The notes under the pieces are model-generated. The model was not told the origin of the DNA, did not search any database, and saw only the letters and a program-made list of their open reading frames with translations. DNA of 64,000 nucleotides from a virus: positions 175,551 to 239,550 of IMG/VR virus record IMGVR_UViG_3300033183_000491; one strand, given 5' to 3'. Every line of letters begins with the position of its first letter. The stretch's first letter is position 1. Below, one piece after another: positions 31,248 to 61,617 of the stretch. The translations under genes were made by a program, and so were the position numbers.

Positions 31248-31829
31248 ATGAACATTGACAATCCAACACTCATCCAACAGCTCTTCCAAGAATTCGTCTC
31301 CAATGGGGGAAAGCCTCAGATCACATCTTTCCGGACACACCTCGAAGGTCTTATGAAGAATGAGATTAAACCACTTTGTGGCTCATCACGACGCCTCGCT
31401 CCCGGAGCTCATGACTGGAGGGACGAACTTAATGCAAGGTTTGGAGGACGAGGGGCTAAGTGGCAATTTGTCTCTCTCGAGGAAATTGCTCCCACTCTTG
31501 ACGGGTTCGACGAGGAAGGCATCGATACGACTGAATACCGGATGTGGACCCAGTCGCAAGGAAAAGCTTGGATTCGTTACCTTAAGCCTCGCATCGTCAA
31601 TGGTCAGAATGTGGCGGCATTTACGGTCCATACACTGGGGTCAACGATCTTCCAGCCTCACCAACTCCACTTTATCCCGGTCGATCGTTTGGATGAGACC
31701 ATCACTCCTCTCGGGGGAACACCATTCTCCCACAAACTCGAGGAATCCATCACAATCTCTGATGAGGACCCTGTCGTCGAGGATACACTGGAGGATACCG
31801 AGGTTGACGATGATGACCTCATCGGGTAA
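31248..31829 (+). CDS. Unknown early protein, GRGAKW family, paralogue 1
   Basis: 193 residues. An N-terminal helical part (about 1-55; LFQEF, T-S-F-R-T-H-L-E, EIKPLCG), then a core with RFGGRGAKWQFVSLEEI near 64, GKAWIRYLKPR near 108, an AAFTVHTLGSTI strand, a Q-P-H-Q-L-H-F-I-P-V-D-R-L-D segment and TPFSHKLEES; acidic tail. Four relatives lie to the right. No known domain recognised. Four promoters in tandem and C-ending codons suggest very strong early expression. RBS AAAGGAG is 8 bases before the ATG. Confidence 0.8.
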   Translation: MNIDNPTLIQQLFQEFVSNGGKPQITSFRTHLEGLMKNEIKPLCGSSRRLAPGAHDWRDELNARFGGRGAKWQFVSLEEIAPTLDGFDEEGIDTTEYRMWTQSQGKAWIRYLKPRIVNGQNVAAFTVHTLGSTIFQPHQLHFIPVDRLDETITPLGGTPFSHKLEESITISDEDPVVEDTLEDTEVDDDDLIG

Positions 31830-31903
31830 GGGGTAGGAGGGGATTGGGAGGATTATCTCTCGATCGTACAAATCACTCAGACGGCGATATAATCGTTCGA
31901 TGA

Positions 31904-31932
31904 GTGTAACATTAAATGATCTAGTCTATAAT
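31904..31932 (+). promoter_or_regulatory. Early-type promoter P5
   Basis: GTGTAA 31904-31909, TATAAT 31927-31932, spacer 17. Drives the gene at 31993. Confidence 0.75.
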
Positions 31933-31992
31933 ATAGATGTAGGTCAATCGTTGAAACATTCACTCTCTCATTCAGTCTGAAAGGACAAACTC

Positions 31993-32493
31993 ATGGAAAC
32001 GATCTTCGACAAATACACAGAGATTCGCAATTACGCTGACTTCGCTCATTCGATCTACAAGATGAAAGGATTCTGCCCTGAATACCGTGAGGCTCGAAAG
32101 CCCGTCAAAGAGATCGTTGACTCTCTCGATCCTGCCCTCATTGAGAGGTTCAGGAAGGCTCAACGATGGGTCGATCAAAACCACCCACTCGTTGGCTGCA
32201 ACTCGACCTGGTCAAATTGCAAGTCGAAGGAGGACATCATGCTTGATTACCTCGGACTCAGCGAATTCCGTGTCGATCGTCTGAGAAAAGACGAAGAGTT
32301 CAAGAAGTCCGATGTTTCGTCGAAACAGATGATCGTTGATGGCTTTAGGTATTACGAGGCTCTCCTCGACAAAGAGAGGGACATCCTTTCAGCTGGTGAC
32401 GTTGACATCTCGCACACTGACCGGATGGAGGAGGCGATCAGGACAATGCTTCTTTCGTTGAGTGACTACGACGACAACCTTGACGCTCTTTGA
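31993..32493 (+). CDS. Unknown helical early protein
   Basis: 166 residues, charged and helical (METIFDKYTEIRNYADFAHS start), four Cys/Trp-marked turns around residue 70 (VGCNSTWSNC). No family recognised. GAAAGGAC precedes the ATG. G+C-rich like its left neighbour, with ATC, CTC and GAC preferred. Confidence 0.65.
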   Translation: METIFDKYTEIRNYADFAHSIYKMKGFCPEYREARKPVKEIVDSLDPALIERFRKAQRWVDQNHPLVGCNSTWSNCKSKEDIMLDYLGLSEFRVDRLRKDEEFKKSDVSSKQMIVDGFRYYEALLDKERDILSAGDVDISHTDRMEEAIRTMLLSLSDYDDNLDAL

Positions 32494-32507
32494 GAAAAGG
32501 ATTCTGA

Positions 32508-32621
32508 ATGTTTCTTCTAGTCGTTACAATCTTCACATTCGTTTGCTACACTTATCTTCGCATGCTTTGGCTTATGACTAAGCTTCTCCCGATCACTCTC
32601 AAGACGATGTACTTCATCTGA
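32508..32621 (+). CDS. Membrane microprotein
   Basis: 37 residues, MFLLVVTIFTFVCYTYLRML then WLMTKLLPITLKTMYFI. One long hydrophobic helix and a short basic part. It lies 14 bp after the previous stop, with GAAAAGG as ribosome site, on the same transcript. Confidence 0.5.
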   Translation: MFLLVVTIFTFVCYTYLRMLWLMTKLLPITLKTMYFI

Positions 32622-32666
32622 GCTTGACTCGATCATCACACCTCTCGATTCGTCAACTTTTCAAAA

Positions 32667-32695
32667 GTGTAAATTGACTTAGTCATTGATATAAT
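32667..32695 (+). promoter_or_regulatory. Early-type promoter P6
   Basis: GTGTAA 32667-32672, TATAAT 32690-32695, spacer 17. CGTCAACT lies about 16 bp before the -35, as at several sibling promoters (P9, P12, P17). Confidence 0.75.
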
Positions 32696-32728
32696 CAACA
32701 AAAACATTTAAACAAACGAGGAAAACAC

Positions 32729-33028
32729 TTGAATCACACAGTTTTAACACTCATCACATCTTTCTGTCTTTCATCTCTTGCATACCACGCATCACAGGAT
32801 CAAGTTGAGATCTTGGAGTTTGACCCAATCGTTATTACTGCTCAGCACTCGACGATTGTCTTTGAAGAGACAGAGATTCGATCTGATGGTGACGCTGAAG
32901 GGATTGATTGGGATCACAATGAAGAGTTCTGGTGCGCAACGCATCCTGATGAATGTCTCATCGATACAAATCTTCAGGGAGGCGACGATGATGACGACGA
33001 TGACTCTGACGAAGAGTTTGGTTGCTAA
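32729..33028 (+). CDS. Exported acidic protein
   Basis: 99 residues from a TTG start (ACGAGG is 7 bases upstream; no ATG is available). Signal peptide about 1-21 (cleavage near AYHA). The mature part is strongly acidic, ending GGDDDDDDDSDEEFGC, with three further Cys (FWCATHPDECLID). Predicted to act in the periplasm or envelope; the poly-Asp tail may bind calcium or mimic nucleic acid. Confidence 0.6.
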   Translation: MNHTVLTLITSFCLSSLAYHASQDQVEILEFDPIVITAQHSTIVFEETEIRSDGDAEGIDWDHNEEFWCATHPDECLIDTNLQGGDDDDDDDSDEEFGC

Positions 33029-33043
33029 GACTTAAATTGGTTT

Positions 33044-33072
33044 GTGTACTTTATTTCGGACACTGATATAAT
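33044..33072 (+). promoter_or_regulatory. Early-type promoter P7
   Basis: GTGTAC 33044-33049, TATAAT 33067-33072, spacer 17. Confidence 0.75.
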
Positions 33073-33113
33073 AAAACGTACGGTTAATCTTCACACACTC
33101 AAAGGACATTCAA

Positions 33114-33488
33114 ATGAGAAACAACAAAAAGATCTGGACAAGAGAAGAGATCAATCAGATGATTATGCTTAATGATCACGCCGTTGAGAGAGCAATCGTT
33201 CGACTATATAAGGCACAGACTCAAGATGAAACTCTTCAGTCCAGATCAAAGCATCGCAATGGTCGAGGTTTCAACGCAGCTCACGCAAAATCTGGGACTC
33301 TCATCGCTCAGTGGATCTTGGGTCTTGATGGCAAGAATCGTCAAAGATACGAGCCTAAGAGTCTTCTACACCCAAGATGTTCAAAGCTTCTTGGTCCACG
33401 CATCAACTGTTTCAATGTGATCGCTAAAGCTAGGAAGATCGCGCTCATCCATTCATCACAACTCGTTGAGATTGCTAACAATCGTTAA
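33114..33488 (+). CDS. Basic early protein, NGRGFN type
   Basis: 124 residues. W-T-R-E-E-I...NDHAVERAIVRLYKAQTQDE, then K-H-R-N-G-R-G-F-N-A-A-H-A, a near-central gap, and a C-terminal I-x-x-S-x-QL-x-x-IAN. The order W-T-x-E-E / Y-x-x-QT-x-x-E / NG-x-GFN / QL-x-x-IA recurs in small proteins of many phages and plasmids, function unknown. Confidence 0.7.
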   Translation: MRNNKKIWTREEINQMIMLNDHAVERAIVRLYKAQTQDETLQSRSKHRNGRGFNAAHAKSGTLIAQWILGLDGKNRQRYEPKSLLHPRCSKLLGPRINCFNVIAKARKIALIHSSQLVEIANNR

Positions 33489-33501
33489 GAAAGAGGTTAT
33501 C

Positions 33502-33597
33502 ATGCTAACACTCACAGATTATGCGGCTTATGGGGGAATCATTTTAGCTTGCATCCTTGCTCTTGCCTTTATCTACGTTTTCATCGTTGAGATGTAG
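33502..33597 (+). CDS. Membrane microprotein
   Basis: 31 residues, MLTLTDYAAYGGIILACILA then LAFIYVFIVEM. A single TM helix with almost nothing outside it. AGAGG is 6 bases upstream; 13 bp after the preceding gene. Confidence 0.5.
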   Translation: MLTLTDYAAYGGIILACILALAFIYVFIVEM

Positions 33598-33623
33598 TAA
33601 TCATAGAATTCATCGGTTTGATA

Positions 33624-33652
33624 GTGTATATTGAATCGTTGAATAGTATAAT
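33624..33652 (+). promoter_or_regulatory. Early-type promoter P8
   Basis: GTGTAT 33624-33629, TATAAT 33647-33652, spacer 17. Confidence 0.77.
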
Positions 33653-33697
33653 AACTCATCAATCATATTAATCTAATCAAACAAAGGAATCATTCAG

Positions 33698-33913
33698 ATG
33701 GATGTTAACACAAAGCCTAGAAAGCAAAGACGACGTCTAACAGATAAACCAGCTCACACAGTTTGGTCTGAAAAGCTTGACAAAGGAGGATACATTATCT
33801 TTGCAGGGATTCGAGGAACAGACGCTAAGACTATCGCTGGAGGAGCAACAAGTGAGGAAACTCTTGAGTACAACATGAGGAAAGCAAAGCTCAAGTTTGG
33901 TCTCAAACTCTAG
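33698..33913 (+). CDS. Small basic early protein
   Basis: 71 residues with an N-terminal basic patch (KPRKQRRRL) and a compact body (GGYIIFAGIRGTDAKTIAGG). Possibly nucleic-acid binding; no family recognised. AAAGGAA precedes the ATG. Confidence 0.6.
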   Translation: MDVNTKPRKQRRRLTDKPAHTVWSEKLDKGGYIIFAGIRGTDAKTIAGGATSEETLEYNMRKAKLKFGLKL

Positions 33914-33955
33914 GATGCTCGAGGTTTATACCTCATGCTTCGTCAATTTTCCAAA

Positions 33956-33984
33956 GTGTATATTTAGATATCCTATATTATAAT
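33956..33984 (+). promoter_or_regulatory. Early-type promoter P9
   Basis: GTGTAT 33956-33961, TATAAT 33979-33984, spacer 17, then AAACCACAAGGTCCATTAAA. The leader reads CTTCTTCATCTAAAGGA, nearly the same as that of P10. Confidence 0.8.
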
Positions 33985-34032
33985 AAACCACAAGGTCCAT
34001 TAAACTTAACTTCTTCATCTAAAGGACACAAT

Positions 34033-34254
34033 ATGAATAATATTACTAAAGACCAATACCTCAGTCTTCTTCAAGGAGACTTTCCTTCATCACTCGACGA
34101 GGACCTCAAGATGGACATTCCTCAAGATGGTGCAATTCTTCTCGTCGAGGAAGATGGTCAATACTACTTTGATGGAATTGAACTTAATGAACTAAGCGAT
34201 GAGGAGATTGAGGAATCTAAAGGATACGGCAAGATTGTCTACATTAAGATCTAA
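34033..34254 (+). CDS. Small acidic early protein
   Basis: 73 residues, strongly acidic (DLKMDIPQDG, VEEDGQYYFDG, LSDEEIEES). No family recognised. It has its own promoter (P9) and is followed by P10, so it is a single-gene unit. Confidence 0.6.
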   Translation: MNNITKDQYLSLLQGDFPSSLDEDLKMDIPQDGAILLVEEDGQYYFDGIELNELSDEEIEESKGYGKIVYIKI

Positions 34255-34262
34255 TAAATAAA

Positions 34263-34291
34263 GTGTATATGTGGTTTAGGAGGTTTATAAT
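34263..34291 (+). promoter_or_regulatory. Early-type promoter P10
   Basis: GTGTAT 34263-34268, TATAAT 34286-34291, spacer 17, then AAACCATAAGGTCCATTTAA. Confidence 0.82.
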
Positions 34292-34338
34292 AAACCATAA
34301 GGTCCATTTAATAAACTTCTTCATCTAAGGGATATTAT

Positions 34339-34404
34339 TTTGAACAAAGTAAAAGCTCGCAAATCTATCCATTTGAACAAAGTAAAAGCTCGCAAATCTA
34401 TCCA
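34339..34404. repeat. Perfect 33-bp tandem duplication
   Basis: Copies at 34339-34371 and 34372-34404 are identical. Each begins TTTGAACAAAG, so the TTG start codon itself is duplicated. Being 33 bp, it keeps the frame and adds 11 residues. Confidence 0.92.
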
Positions 34405-34516
34405 AAAGCTACTTGACAAAGCTAAGAAAGCTCAGGCTTCTGGTAATCATAAAGAATCACTTCAACTTTTAGAAGATGCACATCAACTAAGCTTATGGAT
34501 TAAAGATAGAGGATAA
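34340..34516 (+). CDS. Small basic helical protein with duplicated N-terminus
   Basis: 58 residues from TTG 34340: NKVKARKSIHL then NKVKARKSIQK, followed by an amphipathic helix (LLDKAKKAQASG, LLEDAHQLSLW). The second TTG at 34373 could equally start a 47-residue protein; AAGGGATATTAT precedes the first. Probably nucleic-acid or ribosome binding from its charge; no family known. Confidence 0.55.
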   Translation: MNKVKARKSIHLNKVKARKSIQKLLDKAKKAQASGNHKESLQLLEDAHQLSLWIKDRG

Positions 34517-34524
34517 TCAATAAA

Positions 34525-34553
34525 GTGTAACTTTCAAACTTTATTGGTATAAT
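34525..34553 (+). promoter_or_regulatory. Early-type promoter P11
   Basis: GTGTAA 34525-34530, TATAAT 34548-34553, spacer 17; CCATAAGG extension absent. Drives paralogue 2. Confidence 0.75.
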
Positions 34554-34586
34554 AACTCATCACCCCTTAAATAAAAGGACAACGCA

Positions 34587-35219
34587 ATGACTAACTCAAA
34601 CATTCAATCAGACAATCAAAACGAGGAGATCAACATGTCAACAATTCAAACACTTTTTCAAGAATATCTATCTGATGGCGGCAAACCACAGGTCACATCC
34701 TTTAGGGTTCACATCGAGGCTCTCATCAAGAAAGAGATTAAACCACTTTGTGGAAGATCCGGAAAGTCTGTTGGTGATAATGATTGGAGGACTCAACTCA
34801 TTGAACGCTTCAAGGGACGAGGAGCAAAATGGCAATTTGTCTCTCTCGAAGAGATTGCTCCCACTCTTGATCGGTTTGACACAGAAGGGGTTGATACAGA
34901 AGATTACAGACAATGGACTCAATCTCAAGGAAAAGCTTGGATTAGGTTTATGGCTCCCCGATTAAATAATGGAGTTAAGTCTGCTGCTTTTACAGTTCAC
35001 ACTCTTGGTTCAACAATCTATCAGCCACACCAGGTCCATTACATTGAGCTTGATAGATTGGATGAAGTTATTACACCACTTGATTCAACACCACATGCAT
35101 TAAAACTCGAGGAATCTATTCAACCAGATGAAGATCAGATGACAGACATTCAGACTGAGCTTGGACAAGAGGTTTATCCGGCTGAAATGGATTGTCTAGA
35201 TGATGATCTAGGTCTATAA
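34587..35219 (+). CDS. Unknown early protein, GRGAKW family, paralogue 2
   Basis: 210 residues, closest to paralogue 1 (identical blocks include KWQFVSLEEIAPTLD, QSQGKAWIR and F-T-V-H-T-L-G-S-T-I). A 16-residue N-terminal extension precedes a second ATG at 34635 (MSTIQTLFQEYLSDGG) that matches the start of paralogue 1 and is preceded by GAGGAG, so the shorter form of 194 residues may be the real or an additional product. Confidence 0.8.
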   Translation: MTNSNIQSDNQNEEINMSTIQTLFQEYLSDGGKPQVTSFRVHIEALIKKEIKPLCGRSGKSVGDNDWRTQLIERFKGRGAKWQFVSLEEIAPTLDRFDTEGVDTEDYRQWTQSQGKAWIRFMAPRLNNGVKSAAFTVHTLGSTIYQPHQVHYIELDRLDEVITPLDSTPHALKLEESIQPDEDQMTDIQTELGQEVYPAEMDCLDDDLGL

Positions 35220-35308
35220 AGGACTTGGGGATAATCTTCTAATCTCTTTAACTCTTCACCCTCAAAGATGACTTGATGTTGCCACCCTTGGCAGCGTCAA
35301 CTCGATAA

Positions 35309-35337
35309 GTGTATATTTTCTCAACATTGAGTATAAT
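35309..35337 (+). promoter_or_regulatory. Early-type promoter P12
   Basis: GTGTAT 35309-35314, TATAAT 35332-35337, spacer 17, followed by ATATTATAAGGCATTT, a variant extension shared with P14. Confidence 0.8.
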
Positions 35338-35402
35338 ATATTATAAGGCATTTACCTTTAACATTCAATCAAAACATTCAGTCAATCGATAAGGAGAATA
35401 AT

Positions 35403-35693
35403 ATGTCAAGTAAAAACATGATCGAGGTACAATGGGAGTTTGACATCGTCACAGACGAAGAGCTTCAGCGACGACTTGGATTAACAGAAGGAGAGGTTTA
35501 CGAGATCATCGATGAAGATGATGGTGCGGAGAGGTTGAACATGATGTGTGCCCAAGAGATGGAAGTTCCGGTTTACATTAACCTTGATCTTTTCTTTGAT
35601 GATCCAAGATCAGTTGACGAAGACGAGATTACAGAAACTCTTTCAGATGAATATGGTTGGTTGGTCGATAGCTGGGAGTGGTCAAACGATTAA
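35403..35693 (+). CDS. Acidic early protein
   Basis: 96 residues, very acidic (EIIDEDDGAE, FFDDPRSVDEDEITE) and rich in Trp (four), ending WLVDSWEWSND. DNA-mimic-like charge, but no family recognised. AAGGAG precedes the ATG by 8 bases. Confidence 0.6.
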   Translation: MSSKNMIEVQWEFDIVTDEELQRRLGLTEGEVYEIIDEDDGAERLNMMCAQEMEVPVYINLDLFFDDPRSVDEDEITETLSDEYGWLVDSWEWSND

Positions 35694-35713
35694 TCATTCT
35701 TATATTATCAAAT

Positions 35714-35742
35714 GTGTATATAAGATTATGTCTGTTTATAAT
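35714..35742 (+). promoter_or_regulatory. Early-type promoter P13
   Basis: GTGTAT 35714-35719, TATAAT 35737-35742, spacer 17, then AAACCATAAGGTCCATTTAA. Confidence 0.82.
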
Positions 35743-35800
35743 AAACCATAAGGTCCATTTAATCTATCCAATAACCTTTAAAAGAGAAAACAGAGATCAA

Positions 35801-36031
35801 ATGAGTGATTCTAAATATCTTAATATCTATAATGAGTGGAAGACCAGAGCAATTAAGGAAGGATTCACATTCAATCAGTTTTGGGAACATTATAATCTTT
35901 ACATTGACCCGATGAATGCACAGCCTGAAGAATGTGCAATTGCTGCCAAACTTTCTTATAGATCACTTATTGAGACAAGAAATGCAGAAACACAATTAAA
36001 CAGACAGTTGGAGACAGCACAATGGATCTAA
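35801..36031 (+). CDS. Small helical early protein
   Basis: 76 residues from ATG 35801 (MSDSKYLNIYNEWKTRAIKE). The longer open frame from 35678 runs through promoter P13, so the later start is preferred. Helical, with an AIKEGFTFNQFWEHYNLYID segment. Unknown function. Confidence 0.6.
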   Translation: MSDSKYLNIYNEWKTRAIKEGFTFNQFWEHYNLYIDPMNAQPEECAIAAKLSYRSLIETRNAETQLNRQLETAQWI

Positions 36032-36252
36032 TCAAATATCTTAAAGAGTTTTTATATGGAGTTGCTGCAGTTTCTGTTGTCTTTGCTTCAGCAGTCATTG
36101 CTTTAACAATCTTTATGTTCCCATTCATATTCTGTGCACTTGTTGAATACGAGACAGGAATGACTTGGCTTGGAATAACTTTTATCTTGCCGTCATATGC
36201 ATGCATGTATGTTATCGCACGACACTTTAATCTAATCGAATTCGAAGACTAA
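36022..36252 (+). CDS. Two-TM early membrane protein
   Basis: 76 residues with TM helices at about 13-40 and 48-66 and short charged ends (C-terminus NLIEFED). Overlaps the preceding gene by 10 bp, so translation is coupled. Unknown function. Confidence 0.6.
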   Translation: MDLIKYLKEFLYGVAAVSVVFASAVIALTIFMFPFIFCALVEYETGMTWLGITFILPSYACMYVIARHFNLIEFED

Positions 36253-36275
36253 TCAAATCACAAACGAGGTTCTAA

Positions 36276-36572
36276 ATGAATGATCAAGACATCACCTTTA
36301 AAACAAACTCTGATGGATCAATCCTTGCTTGGCCAGCTCCAACAGGTCCGGCAACAGAAGTTAATCGGCCTCTTGAAGAAAGATTACAATATTATTCAGC
36401 AACTCACACACTCAAAGTCGATCACAGTTTATTTGTCCCGAAGAAAGAAACTGTCGAACTAATCTTAGAAGCTTGGGATGAAGCTCAATGTAATCTCGTT
36501 GTCGATGAAGATTCTTATTATGAATATCCTATCGATCCTTCTTGGACTTACTCCGACATTTATTCATATTAA
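36276..36572 (+). CDS. Unknown early protein
   Basis: 98 residues (MNDQDITFKTNSDGSILAWP start), mixed alpha/beta, with a Tyr/Asp-rich C-terminus (DSYYEYPIDPSWTYSDIYSY). ACGAGG precedes the ATG. Co-transcribed with the membrane-protein genes on each side. Confidence 0.6.
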   Translation: MNDQDITFKTNSDGSILAWPAPTGPATEVNRPLEERLQYYSATHTLKVDHSLFVPKKETVELILEAWDEAQCNLVVDEDSYYEYPIDPSWTYSDIYSY

Positions 36573-36594
36573 TAAATAACACGAGGTATATAAC

Positions 36595-36771
36595 ATGTTA
36601 TCACCGCTTGAATTTGAATTTTGGCAAGCAGCTATTCCTCCTATTTGTATGTTGACAATCCCGATCATGATTACGTCTGGAGCTTCTGTTTGGAGAGCTT
36701 TTCTTACTTCATCAGTTGTTTATCTTATTATTGTTCTAGTTGTTGCTTGCGACATCCAATCTTTTAACTAA
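36595..36771 (+). CDS. Two-TM membrane microprotein
   Basis: 58 residues: MLSPLEFEFWQAAIPPICML..., TM helices about 12-28 and 38-52 separated by a short S-V-W-R turn. ACGAGG lies 9 bases upstream. The layout (short acidic start, TM, polar turn, TM) recurs at 43298 and 45558. Confidence 0.55.
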   Translation: MLSPLEFEFWQAAIPPICMLTIPIMITSGASVWRAFLTSSVVYLIIVLVVACDIQSFN

Positions 36772-36789
36772 CTTTTAGTTGTTTTGCCC

Positions 36790-36861
36790 CTCACACGTCT
36801 CGTCTCATCATCAGGGCTTCTGGAAACGATTTGAACTACTTTCCGCGAGATCTTTTTCTAG
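36790..36861 (+). repeat. Intergenic element, copy A
   Basis: Core ACGATTTGAACTACTTTCCG then CGAGATCT at 36826-36853, preceded by CACAC...TCATCATCAGGGCTTCTG as in copy B. Lies just after a gene and before a promoter, like its siblings. Confidence 0.6.
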
Positions 36862-36928
36862 TTTTTTTCTTCTACTTTTTTTGTGATTCATTTCTTATTA
36901 AGATTGAGAATCACAGATAATCTATAAT

Positions 36929-36957
36929 GTGTATATTTCCTCAATGTTGAGTATAAT
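36929..36957 (+). promoter_or_regulatory. Early-type promoter P14
   Basis: GTGTAT 36929-36934, TATAAT 36952-36957, spacer 17, then ATATCATAAGGCATTT. Confidence 0.8.
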
Positions 36958-37005
36958 ATATCATAAGGCATTTGAATTTACAACTTAATCTTTAAAAGGA
37001 TAATA

Positions 37006-37170
37006 ATGAAAGCTTCAACTATTTACAATATTTCTTCAACAATTTGTTTTATTCTTTCTCTTTACTTCTTTTATCAGGTCTCGCCTTTATATGCTCTCAT
37101 CATGTCAATCATTCTCCTCGCCTCAGAAGTTATGGTTTGTTATAAAACTCAAAATGTGTATTTAGATTAA
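37006..37170 (+). CDS. Two-TM membrane microprotein
   Basis: 54 residues, MKASTIYNISSTICFILSLY..., TM helices about 8-25 and 30-46. AAAAGGA is 6 bases before the ATG. The last codons overlap the -35 of P15. Confidence 0.55.
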   Translation: MKASTIYNISSTICFILSLYFFYQVSPLYALIMSIILLASEVMVCYKTQNVYLD

Positions 37171-37184
37171 CTCTGTTTTATAAT
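37156..37184 (+). promoter_or_regulatory. Early-type promoter P15
   Basis: GTGTAT 37156-37161 (inside the preceding gene), TATAAT 37179-37184, spacer 17. Confidence 0.75.
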
Positions 37185-37248
37185 ATTATATCAATCCATT
37201 AAAACCTATTAACCAACACCAAAACATTAAACAGAAAGAAAACTGCTT

Positions 37249-37617
37249 ATGTCTATCAATATCAATAATAATCCTCAAAGATATTTCTCCATTGATTACA
37301 GATCTTGTCCTTCAGGTGTTGGAACAATCATTGATCCAGATGGTCAAACTCTTGTTACTTCTCCAGATTCAGGCCCAGAAACAATTGAGGAAGCTTACAA
37401 TATCTTTGGTGATTATTACAACTTTGTCATCCACATCAACAAAAGCTTCGGTGAAGATCCCCAATCAGCTCATAAAGATCTCCAAAAGGTTTTAACTAAG
37501 TCTAATATTTCTCATGTTCACGATTTAGAACTCGCTTATGAATATCCTGATAAACACACTAACGGATTCTTTGAAACTAATACTTGGTCTTCTATCATCA
37601 ACAATATGATTAACTGA
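37249..37617 (+). CDS. Unknown early protein
   Basis: 122 residues (MSININNNPQRYFSIDYRSC start). The GTIIDPDGQTLVTS region and a later helix ETIEEAYNIFGDYYNFVIHI suggest a compact alpha/beta fold. GAAAGAAAAC is the likely ribosome site. No family recognised. Confidence 0.6.
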   Translation: MSININNNPQRYFSIDYRSCPSGVGTIIDPDGQTLVTSPDSGPETIEEAYNIFGDYYNFVIHINKSFGEDPQSAHKDLQKVLTKSNISHVHDLELAYEYPDKHTNGFFETNTWSSIINNMIN

Positions 37618-37632
37618 AAGGGGTATTACACC

Positions 37633-37725
37633 ATGCACATTTCAGAACTATCTAATAGTGAACTCATTACAGCTTGCGCTATTTCTATGTTTTTTCTCTG
37701 GTATCTCATCAGAGCTCTTGAATAA
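37633..37725 (+). CDS. Membrane microprotein, LWYLIRALE family, copy 1
   Basis: 30 residues, MHISELSNSELITACAISMF then FLWYLIRALE. The last ten residues closely match those of the 28-residue protein at 41688-41774 (M-L-W-Y-L-I-R-A-L-E). One TM helix. AAAGGGG is 7 bases upstream; 15 bp after the preceding gene. Confidence 0.6.
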   Translation: MHISELSNSELITACAISMFFLWYLIRALE

Positions 37726-37775
37726 ATCTTACTTGACCTACACACCCCATCGCATCATCATGAGTTCTAGATCTG

Positions 37776-37810
37776 ACGATTTTAACTACTTTTCCGTAGA
37801 TCTCGAGTCA
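37776..37810 (+). repeat. Intergenic element, copy B
   Basis: ACGATTTTAACTACTTTTCC followed by GTAGATCTCGAGTCA and an A run. Shares 18 bp (CCGTAGATCTCGAGTCAA) with copy D. The wider similarity to copy A begins at about 37741. Confidence 0.65.
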
Positions 37811-37833
37811 AAAAAAGTTTTATATATTTTTTA

Positions 37834-37862
37834 GTGTAAATATGAAATATTAGAGTTATAAT
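37834..37862 (+). promoter_or_regulatory. Early-type promoter P16
   Basis: GTGTAA 37834-37839, TATAAT 37857-37862, spacer 17, then AAACCATAATCC. Confidence 0.78.
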
Positions 37863-37919
37863 AAACCATAATCCAATATATCAATCAAACAATCTCTCAA
37901 TCTAAATAAAGGATTCAAA

Positions 37920-38249
37920 ATGGATAACAATAAACAAACAGCTGCAGAAATCTTGTTCGATACAATCAAATCTTTTTCTCATCTCAATCAAATCACTCAA
38001 TTCGCCCTTGGTCAAGGATGGGATCCAGATTTTGTTGAAGACGAAGATTCAGAAACATACTCTACAAATATGGAACTAGAAGTTCTTATGTCTGAAATTG
38101 ATGGGGCTCGTCACATCGCAAATCTATCTCGAAGACCTTCTCGACAACTCAAAATCTTACTGATCGATAAATATAATGTGGTTGCTGATACCATTCACAA
38201 CACAATCTATTCAGACGATTCTTGTCCTTCTCACACCATCAAATACTAA
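37920..38249 (+). CDS. Unknown early protein
   Basis: 109 residues, mostly helical (AAEILFDTIKSFSHLNQITQ start region) with an acidic middle (DPDFVEDEDSETYS). No family recognised. AAAGGA lies 8 bases before the ATG. Single-gene unit between P16 and P17. Confidence 0.6.
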   Translation: MDNNKQTAAEILFDTIKSFSHLNQITQFALGQGWDPDFVEDEDSETYSTNMELEVLMSEIDGARHIANLSRRPSRQLKILLIDKYNVVADTIHNTIYSDDSCPSHTIKY

Positions 38250-38294
38250 TCACAATGACTCGATTAACATACCTATCGGGTCATCAACTCGGAT

Positions 38295-38323
38295 GTGTAA
38301 ATAAGATATCTCTTGATTATAAT
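38295..38323 (+). promoter_or_regulatory. Early-type promoter P17
   Basis: GTGTAA 38295-38300, TATAAT 38318-38323, spacer 17. CATCAACTC lies about 10 bp before the -35. Confidence 0.77.
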
Positions 38324-38358
38324 ATAACATAATCACCTTCAATCACAAAGGATTCACA

Positions 38359-38724
38359 TTGAACAATCAAATCACTCTAAGTCAATGGAATACATTAATC
38401 AACACAATCAAAGAATCTCCCTCAACAAAAGCTGAACATCCAGAAGTTCTCTACATCCAAGAAGAATCTTTCGGCCAAAACACTCGTCATTCAGTCTACG
38501 ATAACTTTGATCGCCACTATATTCCAGGTCTTGATCTCGTTATATCTCCAAACTCAAACATAGGAACACTCACTGTTTATAACGGCTCAGAACAAGCTAG
38601 AGCTCCTATCTCTTTCGATGATGCTCTCCAGATTGCTCAAAACTTCTTCAACGAATATGGAGGACATATGGCTGAACAGATTGTTTGCGACTGGGTCATG
38701 GATGGTAACGACTCGGTCTTTTAA
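38359..38724 (+). CDS. Unknown early protein, TTG start
   Basis: 121 residues from TTG 38359 (AAAGGA 7 bases upstream; no ATG nearby). MNNQITLSQWNTLINTIKES start; a beta-rich centre (DLVISPNSNIGTLTVYNGSE) and a helix, then C-D-W-V-M-D-G-N-D-S-V-F at the end. No family recognised. Confidence 0.6.
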   Translation: MNNQITLSQWNTLINTIKESPSTKAEHPEVLYIQEESFGQNTRHSVYDNFDRHYIPGLDLVISPNSNIGTLTVYNGSEQARAPISFDDALQIAQNFFNEYGGHMAEQIVCDWVMDGNDSVF

Positions 38725-38750
38725 CAAAGTTTCTCTACGAATCATTATAA

Positions 38751-38784
38751 AACTTTTTATCTACTCTTCCGTAGATCTTATTCT
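38751..38784 (+). repeat. Intergenic element, copy C
   Basis: AACTTTTTATCTACTCTTCC then GTAGATCTTATTCT. Copies B, C and D share CCGTAGATCT. Here it lies between two genes with no promoter in between. Confidence 0.55.
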
Positions 38785-38817
38785 AAAAAATATTCTCCCA
38801 AAAAGGACTCTCGCAAA

Positions 38818-39147
38818 ATGAGCATTCTAAATAACGAAGTTACAACTCTACGACAAATCAAAAACGGTACTAGAGCTTTCCACTGCCTTCGCACTAACTC
38901 AATCTACACGTCTCATTCAAACGGATATGTTCGAAGAGAAGTTAATGCTTATACAAAGCAAAGAAAACAATATCAGCTCAATCCTAAGAAAAGCATCAAA
39001 AGATTCTACACAGTAAACGAAACCACTCAAAGTTATAACACTACAACACGAATCATGGTTATGAATGAATCAGATCGATTGGCTATTATCGAAAGACTCG
39101 CTGAAAAATATGAAGGCTATCGTGGCAATTCAAGTTATAGAGGTTAA
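38818..39147 (+). CDS. Basic early protein, KNGT/NGYVRR type
   Basis: 109 residues, basic. V-T-T-L-R-Q-I-K-N-G-T-R-A-F and IYTSHSNGYVRREV recur in the 131-residue product at 51367-51762 (NGT-x-x-F, YTAHRNGTVNRVI), so the two are distant paralogues. Probably a compact beta domain binding nucleic acid; no known family. Confidence 0.6.
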   Translation: MSILNNEVTTLRQIKNGTRAFHCLRTNSIYTSHSNGYVRREVNAYTKQRKQYQLNPKKSIKRFYTVNETTQSYNTTTRIMVMNESDRLAIIERLAEKYEGYRGNSSYRG

Positions 39148-39196
39148 ACTCTTACTTGGTATGCATACCCTTTGGATCATATAGATTTTCATTACA

Positions 39197-39232
39197 AAGC
39201 TTTTTGACTGCTCGCCCGTAGATCTCGAGTCA
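39197..39232 (+). repeat. Intergenic element, copy D
   Basis: AAGCTTTTTGACTGCTCGCC then CGTAGATCTCGAGTCA, followed by an A run. Like copy B it is preceded, about 50 bp earlier, by CTTACTTG. Confidence 0.65.
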
Positions 39233-39263
39233 ATAAAAAAATATCTTAAATCTAAGACGAGAC

Positions 39264-39286
39264 AGAGGCAAAATCGCGTCGCCTCT
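39264..39286. other. Hairpin at a strand-composition switch
   Basis: AGAGGC (39264-39269) and GCCTCT (39281-39286) around an 11-nt loop. To the left the plus strand is C-rich and G-poor; to the right (to about 40100) it is G-rich and C-poor. The 39148-39434 gap holds otherwise only copy D and a weak promoter. Confidence 0.5.
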
Positions 39287-39382
39287 AGAGTAGTGTAAGA
39301 AAAGAATGACGAGAATGGCGTCAGTAATGTTTTTATTTGTAGTATGATAGTTTCCTTAGAAAACGTGAAAAGTTAAAAACTG

Positions 39383-39412
39383 GTGTATTTTAAGCCACTT
39401 GAGAAGTATATT
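39383..39412 (+). promoter_or_regulatory. Weak early-type promoter (18-bp spacer)
   Basis: GTGTAT 39383-39388 and TATATT 39407-39412, spacer 18, no CCATAAGG. A degenerate relative of the early promoters, in front of the pentapeptide-repeat gene. Confidence 0.4.
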
Positions 39413-39434
39413 TGAGAGAGGGAGAGAATAGAAG

Positions 39435-40061
39435 ATGTATATGAGGTGTGAAAACATGAATTTTACGCAGAAGATGTTTGACGAGTTAGATATATGTGAT
39501 TTGAATTATGCGAAGTTTATAGGTTGTGATTTTAAGGGATTGAAGATTGAGTTAGGAGATGTTTATTTATCTGCGATGACGTTTGAGAATTGTGATATGA
39601 GGGAGTGTGTATTGCAGATGAATGTGGCGAATTTATCGTTTAGTGGTTGTGATTTGAGTGGGAGTAGGTTTGAAGATTCTGGTGTGATGGTTATGTATTT
39701 TGAAGAAGCAAATTGTGAGGGAGTGGATTTTAGGGGGATAGATTATGATTTAGAAGAAGCTTTGGGAGAGTGTTTGAATGGATATAATCATGATCCGCGT
39801 GTGTTGTTTAATGGAGCGAATTTGAGGGGAGCGTTGTTTGATGGATTGAGATTGAATCATGGACAGTTTGAGGGAGCTGATTTGGAAGGGGCTAGTTTTA
39901 GGGGGTGTGATTTGAGTTCTGTTGAGCCTTTGGAGTATGAGCAAGAAAATACATATTTTGATTATTCTGCTGGCACAAGTTTTTTCTTTGCGAGTGTGAA
40001 GGGGGTGGATTTTGAGGGAGCAAATTTGGAGGGAGTGTTGGGATTGGAAGAAGAAATTTGA
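39435..40061 (+). CDS. Pentapeptide-repeat protein
   Basis: 208 residues made largely of A(D/N)LxG-type repeats: DLNYAKFIGCDFKG, LSFSGCDLSGSRFED, VLFNGANLRGALFDG, GQFEGADLEGASFRGCDLSS, VDFEGANLEGVLG. These fold into a right-handed beta helix; relatives such as Qnr/MfpA mimic DNA and bind gyrase. GAGAGAATAG precedes the ATG; ATGs at 39441 and 39456 are alternatives. The plus strand is strikingly poor in C, with TTG, GAG and GGG codons, unlike any neighbour. Confidence 0.85.
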   Translation: MYMRCENMNFTQKMFDELDICDLNYAKFIGCDFKGLKIELGDVYLSAMTFENCDMRECVLQMNVANLSFSGCDLSGSRFEDSGVMVMYFEEANCEGVDFRGIDYDLEEALGECLNGYNHDPRVLFNGANLRGALFDGLRLNHGQFEGADLEGASFRGCDLSSVEPLEYEQENTYFDYSAGTSFFFASVKGVDFEGANLEGVLGLEEEI

Positions 40062-40091
40062 GTGTAAATAGGATTGGTTTGAGGGAATAAT
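40062..40091 (+). promoter_or_regulatory. Early-type promoter P18 (variant)
   Basis: GTGTAA 40062-40067, AATAAT 40086-40091, spacer 18, followed by ATATTATAAGG as at P12. The -35 directly abuts the stop codon of the pentapeptide gene. Confidence 0.55.
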
Positions 40092-40148
40092 ATATTATAA
40101 GGTTTATTTGATTATTTATTGATTTGTTTTGGATTGGGAGAGATCAGC

Positions 40149-40430
40149 ATGAAATATATTAAGAATCTAAGAAATATTGAAGTGGCTAAAACGTGGGGAA
40201 ACTTAAGTCCATCGCATATGTATGAAGAGTGTATCTCTTATGAGAATCATGAAGGAACATTTAAGGTATATTCAGATGGGACTGTTTATTCATATAGATT
40301 ATTGATTGGAGAAGTTAAAAACTCTGAATGGATAGTATATGATTATACAGCACCCGGAAAAAGGTTTTATTCTAATACAACTTCAAGACATGTCGGGTTA
40401 TTAAAAAAATGGGCATCAAGAATTGTTTAA
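40149..40430 (+). CDS. Unknown early protein
   Basis: 93 residues from ATG 40149, chosen for GGGAGAG 6 bases upstream over an in-frame ATG at 40119. MKYIKNLRNIEVAKTWGNLS start; GTFKVYSDGTVYSYRLL is a clear beta hairpin with a 'YSDG-T-V-Y' turn. No family recognised. Confidence 0.55.
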   Translation: MKYIKNLRNIEVAKTWGNLSPSHMYEECISYENHEGTFKVYSDGTVYSYRLLIGEVKNSEWIVYDYTAPGKRFYSNTTSRHVGLLKKWASRIV

Positions 40431-40959: not shown

Positions 40960-40968
40960 GATATAAAT

Positions 40969-46468: not shown

Positions 46469-46497
46469 GTGTAAATAAAATATTTTTTACATATAAT
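46469..46497 (+). promoter_or_regulatory. Early-type promoter P25
   Basis: GTGTAA 46469-46474, TATAAT 46492-46497, spacer 17, then AAACCACAAGG. Drives paralogue 3. Confidence 0.82.
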
Positions 46498-46544: not shown

Positions 46545-47267
46545 ATGGATAATCATCAAGAAAACTTAAACTCAACTGATATTTTGGTTTCTTCTTTAAT
46601 CAATCACTTTAATGACAACAAACAAGGATTTACTTCTTATAGATTTCTTATTGACAAAATCTTGAAAGAAAACATTAAACCTTTGACAAAGGGAAAATCT
46701 AATATTAAAACAGACAGTGGATGGCGGTCTGACCTTATGGAAAGGTTTAGTGGAAGAGGAGCTAAATGGGTCTTTGTAAGCCTACAAGACATTGAACCTA
46801 CGTTAAAATCACTTGAAGATTCTGGTATTAATTGTGACTTCTATAGAAAACATATTAATATAATTGGAAAAGCTTGGATTAGATTTATTGGTCCTCGTAT
46901 TAATAATGGAGTTAACAGCGCCTCATTTGAGGTAAGAACAGAAGGTTCGACAATTATCAGTTCCAACCAAGTCCATTATATTCCAGTTGAATCATTAGAC
47001 GATACAATTGAAATGTTAAATACAACTCCTAAGTCACTTAAGCTAGAAGAAGATTCAGCTCCAATGCCTAAGACATCTAAACCAAAGAAAAAGTCTCCAA
47101 AACCAAAGAAACAAAATCTTTTAGAGACATTAGGAAATGAAATCAATGAAGAGCTTCAAGAAGTTGAATTAAATATTCCACCACAAAATGATGATCCGGA
47201 TGATTGGGAAGCCTTTCTCGCTTCTGAAGGTTTAATCGACGATGATTTTATGAATGATGATATCTAA
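46545..47267 (+). CDS. Unknown early protein, GRGAKW family, paralogue 3
   Basis: 240 residues, the longest member. The core RFSGRGAKWVFVSLQDIEPT, GKAWIRFIGPRINNG, EVRTEGSTI and TPKSLKLEED is plain; between the core and an acidic C-terminus lies a Pro/Lys linker (KTSKPKKKSPKPKK). The family N-terminal domain is kept (F-T-S-Y-R-F-L-I-D-K...NIKPLTK). More AT-rich in codon use than paralogues 1 and 2. Confidence 0.8.
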   Translation: MDNHQENLNSTDILVSSLINHFNDNKQGFTSYRFLIDKILKENIKPLTKGKSNIKTDSGWRSDLMERFSGRGAKWVFVSLQDIEPTLKSLEDSGINCDFYRKHINIIGKAWIRFIGPRINNGVNSASFEVRTEGSTIISSNQVHYIPVESLDDTIEMLNTTPKSLKLEEDSAPMPKTSKPKKKSPKPKKQNLLETLGNEINEELQEVELNIPPQNDDPDDWEAFLASEGLIDDDFMNDDI

Positions 47268-52303: not shown

Positions 52304-53599
52304 TTGTCAAATAAAAAAAACGATTATAGAATTAAAAACATTGATCTAGCAAATTGGGGTCTTAAAGAAGTTAAGATTGCTGAAAAAGATATGCCAGGCC
52401 TTATGTCATTAAGAGAAAAATATTCTGGAACAAAACCTTTAACTGGAGCTAGAATATCTGGATGTTTGCATATGACAATTCAGACAGCAGTTTTAATTGA
52501 TACTTTAGTTGAACTTGGTGCTGATGTGAGATGGATGACATGTAATATTTATAGCACTCAAGATCATGCAGCTGCTTATATTGCGAACAAGGGAATTCCT
52601 GTTTTTGCATGGAAAGGAATGTCTGAGTCTGAATATGATGAATGTTTAAATGATGTTATTTGGTTTGGAGACCAAGGACCAAATATGATCTTAGATGACG
52701 GTGGAGACTTAACTAAATTTATTATTGAAGAACACCCTGAATTAATAAATGAGATTAGAGGAATCTCTGAAGAAACAACAACTGGAGTTCTTAGACTTAG
52801 AGAATATGAACAACAAGGAAAACTTCCAGTTCCAGCAATTAACGTCAATGATTCTGTAACAAAATCAAAATTTGATAACAAATATGGATGTAAAGAAAGT
52901 TGCGTTGATGCTATTAGAAGAGCAACTGATACTATGATGGCTGGTAAAGTTGCAGTTGTTGCAGGATATGGTGATGTTGGTAAAGGATCAGCAGCCTCTT
53001 TAGCATCTTCAGGATGTAGAGTTATTGTGACAGAAATCGATCCTATTTGTGCTCTTCAAGCTGTTATGGATGGATTTAAAGTAACTACAATGGAAGAAGC
53101 TGTTAAAGATGCAGATATTATTGTTACAGCAACAGGAAACTTTAATGTAGTTAATGAAAAACATTTTAAACTAATGAAAGATAATTCTATTGTCTGTAAT
53201 ATTGGTCACTTTGACAATGAGATTGATGTTAAATGGTTAACGAAAAACACTGAAGAAGTTAATATAAAACCTCAGGTAGACATGTATAACTTTGATAATA
53301 AGTCAATTATTCTTCTTGCTAAAGGAAGATTAGTTAATCTAGGTTGTGCAACAGGTCATCCAAGTTTTGTAATGTCTGCATCTTTTACAAATCAGGTTCT
53401 TGCTCAAATTGAATTATGGTCTAAATCGTCTTTCTATGAGAATAAAGTTTATGTTCTTCCAAAAATTCTTGATGAAGAAGTTGCAAGACTTCACTTAGAA
53501 AAAGTTGGAGCAAAGTTAGAATCATTAGACAAAAACCAAGCTAAATATATTAATGTTAATGTTGAAGGTCCTTTTAAAACAGAAGATTATAGGTATTAA
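52304..53599 (+). CDS. ahcY: S-adenosylhomocysteine hydrolase
   Basis: 431 residues, full length, TTG start (GTTAGGAT 8 bases upstream). Substrate-site residues are in [39 protein letters not shown] and YGCKES; the NAD site is GYGDVGKG; the terminal KTEDYRY is canonical. It splits S-adenosylhomocysteine into adenosine and homocysteine, relieving product inhibition of methyltransferases. In a phage this may keep methylation going or adjust S-adenosylmethionine pools. No methyltransferase gene is visible here. Confidence 0.96.
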
Positions 53600-58392: not shown

Positions 58393-58671
58393 ATGGACAA
58401 CAAAGAAGAATACGATGATTCTATTGAAGAAATAATCAAAGAATCTATGGATAACAATCCTATAATGATTATTTCAGTTGACAAAGATGGATCTGTTGCT
58501 TTAATGACAACAGGTAATATAACAAAAATACAAAATGATGTTTGTACTAAAATGCTTATAACAGTCGGAAGTCATTCAATAGTATTATCAGTTGTTTTAT
58601 GGTTAGAAATCGTTTTTGAAAAATTTCTATACAATTGCTCAGAATTCATTAAAAATTTTAAGTCTCATTAG
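58393..58671 (+). CDS. Small unknown protein
   Basis: 92 residues: acidic start (MDNKEEYDDSIEEIIKE), beta-rich centre, then a moderately hydrophobic helix SIVLSVVLWLEIVFEKFLY. No family recognised. Stop overlaps the -35 of P32. Confidence 0.5.
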   Translation: MDNKEEYDDSIEEIIKESMDNNPIMIISVDKDGSVALMTTGNITKIQNDVCTKMLITVGSHSIVLSVVLWLEIVFEKFLYNCSEFIKNFKSH

Positions 58672-58699
58672 TGTAATTAATAATTTATTAGTTTATAAT
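58671..58699 (+). promoter_or_regulatory. Early-type promoter P32
   Basis: GTGTAA 58671-58676, TATAAT 58694-58699, spacer 17, then AAGGTATAAGG. Drives paralogue 4. Confidence 0.78.
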
Positions 58700-58717: not shown

Positions 58718-59275
58718 ATGTCGAAAAATTCATTTAAAAAAGAAATCCGTGAAAGATATAATGGACGTGGCAATGCTTGGGTTAGAGTAGAAAAAGATAC
58801 TCCATCATATTCTAAAATAATCGATAATCTTGTTAGTATTGGGCAAGAAAAATCAGAATATGTAAATCACATTGAAAGAGAAGGTTATGCTTGGATAAGA
58901 TTTCTAAAACCAGAAGGGACTTCAGAAAATCCTGAATGTAAATTTGAAATTAGATATAGAGGTTCAAAAGAAATTCATCTAGATTCATTTATAAACTTTA
59001 GCGATGAAATCTCAAGGCAATTTAAGTTTCTTGGTAATACTCCTTTTAAGCTTCAACTTGAAACTGAGCCTGACAAGCGGAAATCTAAAGTTATAAATAA
59101 AAACTCTTTAGGAAAGACAAAGACTCAAGACAAAAAAGAAGAGACATTATCTATTAACGAAGAAAAAGAAATAAAGATTATTAAAGAAGCTGCCTTAACA
59201 CAAGCTTCTAGTGAAGAACTTGAAGAGTGGTATGAATTCTTAAAAATAAATAACCTTTACGAAGAAAATGTTTAA
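58718..59275 (+). CDS. Unknown early protein, GRGAKW family, paralogue 4 (short form)
   Basis: 185 residues. The family N-terminal domain is missing; the protein starts straight at the core: RYNGRGNAWVRVEKD, then GYAWIRFLKP, KFEIRYRGSKEI and GNTPFKLQLE, followed by a charged helical tail of 65 residues. AAGGAGAG is 7 bases upstream. Confidence 0.7.
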   Translation: MSKNSFKKEIRERYNGRGNAWVRVEKDTPSYSKIIDNLVSIGQEKSEYVNHIEREGYAWIRFLKPEGTSENPECKFEIRYRGSKEIHLDSFINFSDEISRQFKFLGNTPFKLQLETEPDKRKSKVINKNSLGKTKTQDKKEETLSINEEKEIKIIKEAALTQASSEELEEWYEFLKINNLYEENV

Positions 59276-59872: not shown

Positions 59873-60145
59873 ATGAATAATGATCTTGTGAAATATTTCT
59901 ATTTAACTTGCTTAGTTATTTTTTTTAACATGTCATGTGTTCCAAAAAACCAGTATGACATTCTCTTGAAAGAAAAAAGAGATCTTGAAGAGAGAATTGA
60001 TTATCACAGAACAGTTCAAAGAGAATATGACAATCTAGATTTTAAATATAGAAATCTTATGTTTGATTTAGATATCTGTAATAACAAGATAAGATCTTTA
60101 GATACAAAACTTATTGAATGTTTAAATACGAAAGAATGTAAATAA
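59873..60145 (+). CDS. Coiled-coil lipoprotein
   Basis: 90 residues. Signal peptide with lipobox F-N-M-S-C, lipidated Cys22, then VPKNQYDILLKEKRDLEERI and a continuing coiled coil to the C-terminus, with two Cys. This resembles small spanin or o-spanin subunits and also YgdR-like lipoproteins. No i-spanin partner recognised. Confidence 0.6.
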   Translation: MNNDLVKYFYLTCLVIFFNMSCVPKNQYDILLKEKRDLEERIDYHRTVQREYDNLDFKYRNLMFDLDICNNKIRSLDTKLIECLNTKECK

Positions 60146-60415
60146 TTGGATAATTCTGATATTAAACCAGGTGATATGTTATGGGTAACTTTAAAAGGAC
60201 CTGATCAAAATTATGGTTATGGGGAAGTTATTGAAGTCTGGAAAGATGATGAATCAGGAGAAATTTATTATGATTTTCATTGCTTAGTAAATGGTGGTCA
60301 AAGAGTAGGTTGCGTTTCTAATATTATTGAGAAACCTAATATGAGAATGGAGAGTAAATTACTTCAATCAAGAAAAGAATACAAAGAAGTAATGAAAGAA
60401 AAATATAAGTTTTAG
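60146..60415 (+). CDS. Unknown protein, TTG start
   Basis: 89 residues. TTG 60146 directly follows the preceding stop. N-terminal beta barrel-like part (IKPGDMLWVTLKGPDQNYGY, GEVIEVWKDDESGEIYYDFH) and a basic helical tail. No family recognised. Confidence 0.5.
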   Translation: MDNSDIKPGDMLWVTLKGPDQNYGYGEVIEVWKDDESGEIYYDFHCLVNGGQRVGCVSNIIEKPNMRMESKLLQSRKEYKEVMKEKYKF

Positions 60416-60474
60416 AATTCTTTTTCAGATTTATTAATATACTATTATAACTTACAATCTTCGAGGAATAGAAA

Positions 60475-60759
60475 ATGACAAAATGTAAAAGATGCACATC
60501 ATGTACAGCAGGTATTATGTGTCAATGTGGAAAATCAAAAGATATGAAAAATTCAAACGTAGATCACCCTACACACTATTTAAAAGATTCTGGTCATGAA
60601 GTTATTGACGTCATTAAGGCATGGAAATTAAATTTTCATTTAGGAAATGCAATTAAATATATTGCTCGTGCAGGGTTGAAAAACCCAGACAAGAAAATAG
60701 AAGATTTAGAAAAAGCAATCTGGTATATTAAAGACGAAATAAATTCAAGCAAAAACTAA
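60475..60759 (+). CDS. DUF3310 protein with Cys-rich N-terminus
   Basis: 94 residues. Residues 4-19 have six Cys (CKRCTSCTAGIMCQC). From 30 on: DHPTHYLKDSGHEVIDVIKA, W-K-L-N-F-H-L-GNAIKYI-x-RAG-x-K, EDLEKAIWYI, the full DUF3310 signature common in phages. Its function is not settled. CGAGGAA upstream; -10-like TATAAC at about 60444. Confidence 0.85.
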   Translation: MTKCKRCTSCTAGIMCQCGKSKDMKNSNVDHPTHYLKDSGHEVIDVIKAWKLNFHLGNAIKYIARAGLKNPDKKIEDLEKAIWYIKDEINSSKN

Positions 60760-60805
60760 TATTTAGTCTCTTACACATATATAAAAGTAAACGTAGGAGA
60801 CGAAA

Positions 60806-61021
60806 ATGATAGTTATTAAAAAAATAATATGGGACTTTTCAGGTACAGAGTTTGAGGATTGTGATTATGAAGAATCAAGGAAAATTGCAGTCTTGCCTAA
60901 AAAACTTAAAATCAAAGAAGAAGATTTAGATTCAGACGCAGAAATCGAAGATGTTATTGAATTCTTAGAAGAAACTTACAACTTTTCTGTCGAGTCAATA
61001 ATAACAGACCAAGATGACTAA
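60806..61021 (+). CDS. Acidic small protein
   Basis: 71 residues, acidic C-terminal two thirds (EEDLDSDAEIEDVIEFLEE). Resembles small phage proteins with an N-terminal beta hairpin and an acidic helix. TAGGAGAC upstream. No family recognised. Confidence 0.55.
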   Translation: MIVIKKIIWDFSGTEFEDCDYEESRKIAVLPKKLKIKEEDLDSDAEIEDVIEFLEETYNFSVESIITDQDD

Positions 61022-61022
61022 T

Positions 61023-61051
61023 GTGTATTTAAATTTATTTTTGATTATAAT
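61023..61051 (+). promoter_or_regulatory. Early-type promoter P33
   Basis: GTGTAT 61023-61028, TATAAT 61046-61051, spacer 17. Drives paralogue 5; the leader is only about 12 nt. Confidence 0.77.
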
Positions 61052-61068
61052 ATCCTATAGGAGATATT

Positions 61069-61617
61069 ATGAAAGAAAAAATAAAAGAAAAATTCTCTGG
61101 TGTTAAACATAAATGGATATATTATCACATTGATTCTCAAAACTTTCACGTGATATTAAATAAAATTTCAGCTGCAGTCCACAATAAAGAAATAAATAGT
61201 AAATCTGCTATTAATCTTATTAAATGTTTTAAGCATCAAGAGAAAGTTTTCTTAAAGTTTATTAAGACTGTTGGAAGGAAAAACTTTTCATGTGAATGTC
61301 AAATTATAGACAAAGAAAACAACAAACTAACTATATCACTTGATCCTAAAACGTTATTAGACTCTTATAATTTAGATGGAACTCCTAAGTCTTTAAAACT
61401 TTATAAAACTAACGAAAAATCTAAAAACAACTGGAAAAAACCAGATGATGGATTTAATGATCCTATATCATATCCTAATGTTGAAGAAGAGTTAACAGAA
61501 CTAGGATACAAAATGTATAAAGACTGGACTGAAGAGGTTGCATCTTCAGGTCTTAGTAGTATTGATTATTATAGAAAAATTTGTGGGACAGACAAATATT
61601 ATCCAAGGAGTAAATAA
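61069..61617 (+). CDS. Unknown early protein, GRGAKW family, paralogue 5 (most diverged)
   Basis: 182 residues. Starts at the core, like paralogue 4: KEKFSGVKHKWIYYHID (for RF-x-GRGAKW-x-F), K-V-F-L-K-F-I-K-T (for KAWIRF-x-x-P), CECQIIDKEN, and DGTPKSLKLYKT (for TP-x-x-LKLE). The C-terminal 60 residues contain YKMYKDWTEEVASSG. Membership rests on motif order and spacing. Confidence 0.6.
   Translation: MKEKIKEKFSGVKHKWIYYHIDSQNFHVILNKISAAVHNKEINSKSAINLIKCFKHQEKVFLKFIKTVGRKNFSCECQIIDKENNKLTISLDPKTLLDSYNLDGTPKSLKLYKTNEKSKNNWKKPDDGFNDPISYPNVEEELTELGYKMYKDWTEEVASSGLSSIDYYRKICGTDKYYPRSK

Follow-up and report, generated by a model that had tools for sequence, protein, structure and literature searches.

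Five related genes in the plus-strand arm of an uncultured phage

The analyzed window, a stretch of 64,000 nucleotides, comprises bases 175,551–239,550 of the virus record IMGVR_UViG_3300033183_000491, which is 239,550 bases long. The terminase of the record shares 39% identity with its counterpart in Flavobacterium phage immuto and matches many T4-like phages, the best relatives of its GroEL are also found in immuto, and a PF08804 profile search revealed a gp32 gene that is separate from the five genes described here. By its sequence, the phage carrying these genes is an uncultured, T4-related phage. Genes of the window lie mainly on the minus strand left of ~30 kb and nearly throughout on the plus strand from ~31 kb to the window end. 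All five open reading frames listed by an earlier sequence-only reading are present in this plus-strand arm; M1 opens it, and M2–M5 are scattered further along. Among the plus-strand genes of the arm, this family alone has more than two recognized members. The genes, their parts (for M1, with boundaries taken from alignment to the M2 model) and the early-type promoters (GTGTA-N18-TATAAT) 5′ of them are listed below, where A to E denote orthologous groups, D being found in other phages:

30705..30733, plus strand: M1 promoter 1
30850..30878, plus strand: M1 promoter 2
31011..31039, plus strand: M1 promoter 3
31176..31204, plus strand: M1 promoter 4
31248..31829, plus strand: M1, 193 aa, group A; N-terminal helical part ~31248-31403, GRG core ~31416-31745, acidic tail ~31746-31826
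34263..34291, plus strand: early-type promoter 5′ of M2, with a short reading frame in between
34525..34553, plus strand: M2 early-type promoter
34587..35219, plus strand: M2, 210 aa, group A; N-terminal helical part, GRG core ~34782-35114, acidic tail ~35115-35216
46469..46497, plus strand: M3 early-type promoter
46545..47267, plus strand: M3, 240 aa, group B; GRG core ~46722-47048; long tail that ends with the conserved W-x-x-F-L-x-x-E-G-L-[IV]-D and an acidic tip
58671..58699, plus strand: M4 early-type promoter
58718..59275, plus strand: M4, 185 aa, group C; without the N-terminal domain; core ~58718-59062; tail with the conserved L-E-x-W-Y-E-F-L-K-x-N-x-L-Y-E-E-N-V
61023..61051, plus strand: M5 early-type promoter
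61069..61617, plus strand: M5, 182 aa, group E; basic core ~61069-61404; tail with the conserved WKKPDDGF...EEELTELGY.MYK

As had been proposed, an early-type promoter precedes each of the five genes, and the four copies at M1 form the largest promoter array of the family; the M1 ortholog of a sister phage is preceded by three copies, two of them exact and one imperfect. Across the window, the GTGTA-N18-TATAAT sequence occurs 30 times (0.13 expected), always on the plus strand and between 30.7 and 61.1 kb. These copies serve the whole plus-strand arm, and the promoters are therefore not special to the family. By analogy with other phages, we infer that they act early. In many of them (30705-61051), and in relatives too, AAACCATAAGG or a close variant directly follows the -10 box.

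The five proteins are homologous

Profile searches and profile–profile comparisons bore out the proposed homology of the five genes. A hidden Markov model (HMM) of M1–M3 alone identified M4 (E 4e-14), and M5 was reached at E 2.5e-27 by an iterated HMM that was never trained on M5, via the M5 orthologs. Since these orthologs joined during iteration, an independent profile–profile check was made, in which hhalign aligned the M5 group with groups A–D over 102 columns (94% probability, E 1.1e-7); the probability was 61% against group C alone and 10% against group D alone.

The ordered motif signature attributed to the family holds in all five members as a related profile, but its literal motifs are missing in M5. 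Here, GVKHKW replaces GRGxxW, VFLKF replaces AWIRF, the TP motif reads TPKSLKLYK, and the G-S is absent, while the W, the TP motif as such and the general pattern are kept. The TP-x-x-L-x-LE element is likewise not literal in M1, which reads TPFSHKLEE. Near-invariant residues across groups A–D include G, R, W, and F. The core net charge ranges from +6 to +15 in the M5 group and is near neutral in groups A–D, and group E is the most conserved of the member groups. The N-terminal helical part ascribed to M1–M3 was recovered as AlphaFold2 (AF2) helices 19–29 and 36–51 in M2; the further long group D of other phages has a helical N-terminus that differs from that of M1–M3.

The view that no described family carries this signature stood up to our searches. 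No hit over cut-off was obtained in Pfam or NCBIfam, no PHROGs hit was credible, and neither PDB sequences nor PADLOC, which covers defence and not anti-defence proteins, yielded a match, so that the libraries searched contain no confident match to a known family. The family itself thus appears to be undescribed. PPR matches from the PDB sequence search, which covered 27 N-terminal profile positions and included no passing stretch, were dropped, and a comparison of the core profile with 100 T4 ORFs (two genome stretches, with shuffled controls) gave a best probability of 15% (gp62), which is not credible. Kinship to RegA, a small early regulator of T4, was also rejected, as no PF01818/RegA profile match was found and hhalign returned 0.15%.

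Predicted fold of the core

The AF2 model of M2, built with 25 sequences, has a mean pLDDT of 81.5, with core block means mostly of 92–98, and that of M5, built with seven sequences, a mean of 65 with core blocks mostly at 73–84. Both models display the same order of elements, namely helix, β1, two helices, β2, β3, β4, short helix, and β5, with β2–β3 of the predicted core forming a long hairpin. M5, in a moderately confident model, thus follows the element order of M2 rather than an unrelated fold. This order is compatible with an SH3-like small barrel that would carry a helical insert after β1. The fit to SH3-like small-barrel proteins in the M2 and M5 models is one of element order, whereas fold matches were not significant: Foldseek at E <= 0.001 gave no match for M2 against PDB and BFVD or for M5 against PDB, and all PDB matches of the two models lay at E above 0.1. 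The low-probability, nonsignificant matches include chromo/Tudor barrels in the case of M2; for M5, eS4 ribosomal proteins and Gemin6 are among them.

Distribution and history of the paralogs

Four viral-contig scans identified relatives on 45 counted contigs, all of them uncultured IMG/VR records. No match was found by tblastn of M2, M4, and M5 against 50,697 phage records, in GTDB genome contigs (two scans), or in related T4-like records (immuto, Mel-JY01, T4, and others), this last search having had no positive control. The longer contigs carry about five members each: five in the 211-kb sister record, five in one of 53 kb, and at least five in one of 39 kb. Group D is missing from both the window and the 211-kb sister record.

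A tree built from the core domains of 89 sequences resolves groups B, C, and E as clades (support 89, 99, and 95, respectively), and the duplications are therefore older than these phages. Group A surrounds B, and group D forms one cluster, the stray deep sequence L082 aside; leaf L059, inside the D cluster, was wrongly labelled A by the grouping rule. On the sequence evidence, the paralogs are an ancient co-inherited set rather than recent copies, and the suggested repeated duplication and retention is supported by these deep orthologous groups.

M1 and M2 are mosaic. Their linkers pair each with its own sister-phage ortholog (protein identity 0.84–0.89 for M1 and 0.71–0.82 for M2), and stretches of their cores are closer within a phage, reaching 0.95 between M1 and M2 (columns 80–100) and 0.85 between the sister pair (columns 120–150). 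Such mosaicism is the pattern that gene conversion would leave. A dose effect, which had been suggested for the family as a whole, is accordingly plausible for M1 and M2 only.

Conserved tails of the member groups

The tail that follows the core is poorly ordered in the models, and its end is conserved in several groups. Mean pairwise identity in group C drops from 0.55 in the core to 0.38 in the linker and rises to 0.72 over the last 25 residues; the corresponding values for group B are 0.66, 0.49, and, for the terminal peptide, 0.63. The tail of group E is conserved throughout after the core (0.76 and 0.60). By this measure, groups A and D display no clear terminal peak, which for group A is partly an effect of the columns being defined by the reference member selected. 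Conserved, group-specific peptides of this kind support, without proving, a role as partner-binding motifs.

The tails of groups A and B are strongly acidic (net charge about -7 to -28) and mostly end in D-L, D-F, or D-I, with M1 ending in DDLIG; the phage's own gp32 ends similarly, in ADLDSL. Most members of groups A and B thus have an acidic tail with a hydrophobic tip, a feature absent from C, D, and E.

A possible binding core with recruiting ends

All five proteins are paralogs within a single family that appears undescribed. We propose a common folded core of ~105 residues, to which groups A, B, and D add an N-terminal helical part and which is followed by a tail, in most groups with its own conserved peptide. 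In the infected cell, the core may bind nucleic acid or a nucleoprotein complex, with phage DNA, mRNA, or RNA polymerase as candidates, and the tails and N-termini may recruit differing partners. The proteins would then act like phage DNA-binding proteins with hub tails (gp32) or early DNA-binding modulators (T4 MotB); expression would start from the phage's early-type promoters, for M1 from four. Drawn from analogy, this combination of a nucleic-acid- or nucleoprotein-binding core with group-specific recruiting motifs is a tentative reading, possible rather than probable. The basic cores of the M5 group count for a nucleic-acid-binding core and the near-neutral cores of groups A–D against it, and in Foldseek, profile, and PDB searches no family known to bind nucleic acid was matched significantly by fold or by sequence. 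The earlier suggestion that the copies are diversified by target is plausible, because each orthologous group retains its own conserved tail or N-terminus.

Two T4 proteins serve as analogues. MotB, the most useful of these, is an early protein with predicted KOW plus OB domains that binds DNA tightly and nonspecifically (PMC7827196). Its domain order differs from that of the family, its DNA binding is experimental whereas that of the family is inferred, and kinship was rejected (hhalign 0.1–0.5%). For the A and B tails, the analogue is the gp32 C-domain: T4 gp32 and phage single-stranded DNA-binding proteins (SSBs) share with most members of these groups a folded core followed by an acidic tail with a hydrophobic tip, and for the acidic C-domain of gp32 an internal binding at, or close to, the site for ssDNA has been proposed (PMC5892887). 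Together, the two analogues lead us to favor a binding core with diversified recruiting ends.

Alternatively, the paralogs might be host-takeover or anti-defence inhibitors, each blocking a different host protein, with the diversified ends setting the targets. Such a role, which the sequence-only reading had raised, would suit small proteins with early-type promoters, diversified termini, and acidic A and B tails. However, anti-defence genes are usually fast-turnover accessories, and the group set here is ancient and conserved, most M5 orthologs being ~70% identical; moreover, no finding specifically indicates takeover or anti-defence activity, and none of the libraries matched, PADLOC being one of defence proteins. 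We therefore regard inhibition of host proteins as somewhat unlikely.

Improbable, in our view, is a set of transcription regulators, MotA-like or anti-sigma-like, that would act on host RNA polymerase and pattern early and middle expression. T4 MotA is an early regulator with a helical N-terminal domain and a beta-rich C-terminal domain, a layout that the family recalls, and the uniform promoter family lies in the same arm as the five genes. A weak match of M5 to the MotA PHROG (phrog_1345, E 0.11) would point the same way, but it occurred in one of seven M5 orthologs and hhalign gave 2% (T4 MotA) and 0.2%; the match is therefore due to chance, and kinship of M5 to MotA was rejected. We know of no promoter class that depends on proteins of this family.

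The gp32-like acidic, hydrophobic tips of groups A and B might also suggest auxiliary ssDNA-binding proteins beside gp32, which we consider very unlikely. The family matches neither PF08804 nor PF00436, the sole gp32 match of the genome is a different gene, and kinship to this gp32 was rejected (0.1% against the family profile). The gp32-like tip is moreover not shared by groups C, D, and E. PF00436 was not matched in the phages searched, and each of two long records holds one gp32; since the phage already has gp32, a simple SSB role is unnecessary. Finally, T4-like phages package internal proteins, and in this genome capsid-targeting-like peptides stand at the start of many ORFs, but none of the five family members has such an N-terminus, which makes packaged, ejected proteins hardly credible.

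The family could also represent a new fold and form a multi-output early control module of a large uncultured lineage of T4-related phages, in which a conserved binding core, duplicated into five or more ancient paralogs, is directed to a different machine of host or phage by the terminal motif of each; this conjecture we rate as fairly unlikely. The early genes of large phages mostly lack an assigned function, and an ancient paralog set with a shared core and group-specific ends, kept together in dozens of phages, offers a handle on a large early gene arm, where results from one structure and one series of pull-downs would apply to all family members. What is new is the family, as duplicated early phage proteins are already a familiar idea.

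Other features of the genome

The neighbors of M5 (60475-62322 and 62891-63256) encode DUF3310, an RNase H-like protein (PF04308), and an Hsp20 protein, and these recur in many relatives. By sequence look, the window also holds an adenosylhomocysteinase-like gene (52304-53599) and an RNA-ligase-like gene (44064-45296), and elsewhere in the record (G000 26980-28611 and 25962-26711) lie GroEL and a sigma-factor-like gene, both with phage relatives.

Along the arm (31248-41000), third-codon-position GC falls from 0.54–0.62 in the first two plus-strand genes to ~0.2 by 41 kb, remaining low from there on; in other phages, group-A loci are GC-richer (mostly 0.32–0.41) than most C, D, and E loci (0.25–0.31). 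An effect of expression level or of an origin would be our guess. At the strand switch, a GC-rich segment (30560-30670) with the motif AGAGAGTTANCGCTGGGG lies immediately 5′ of the four promoters of M1 and is adjoined by a tract with a GC skew down to -0.75. The motif occupies the equivalent place in the sister phage, and the segment is a candidate origin or control element. Its predicted RNA folding is not unusual given its composition (z -1.2), and AGAGAGTTANCGCTGGGG was rejected as a family-wide element upstream of M1, being confined among the fetched loci to this phage and its sister.

Proteins encoded at 28184-29811, 26379-27335, and 22120-23577 of the window, and by other genes of the record, begin with peptides such as MILENYIKEVLLFE. 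By eye, these N-termini resemble T4 capsid-targeting sequences, suggesting that many packaged internal proteins may be encoded.
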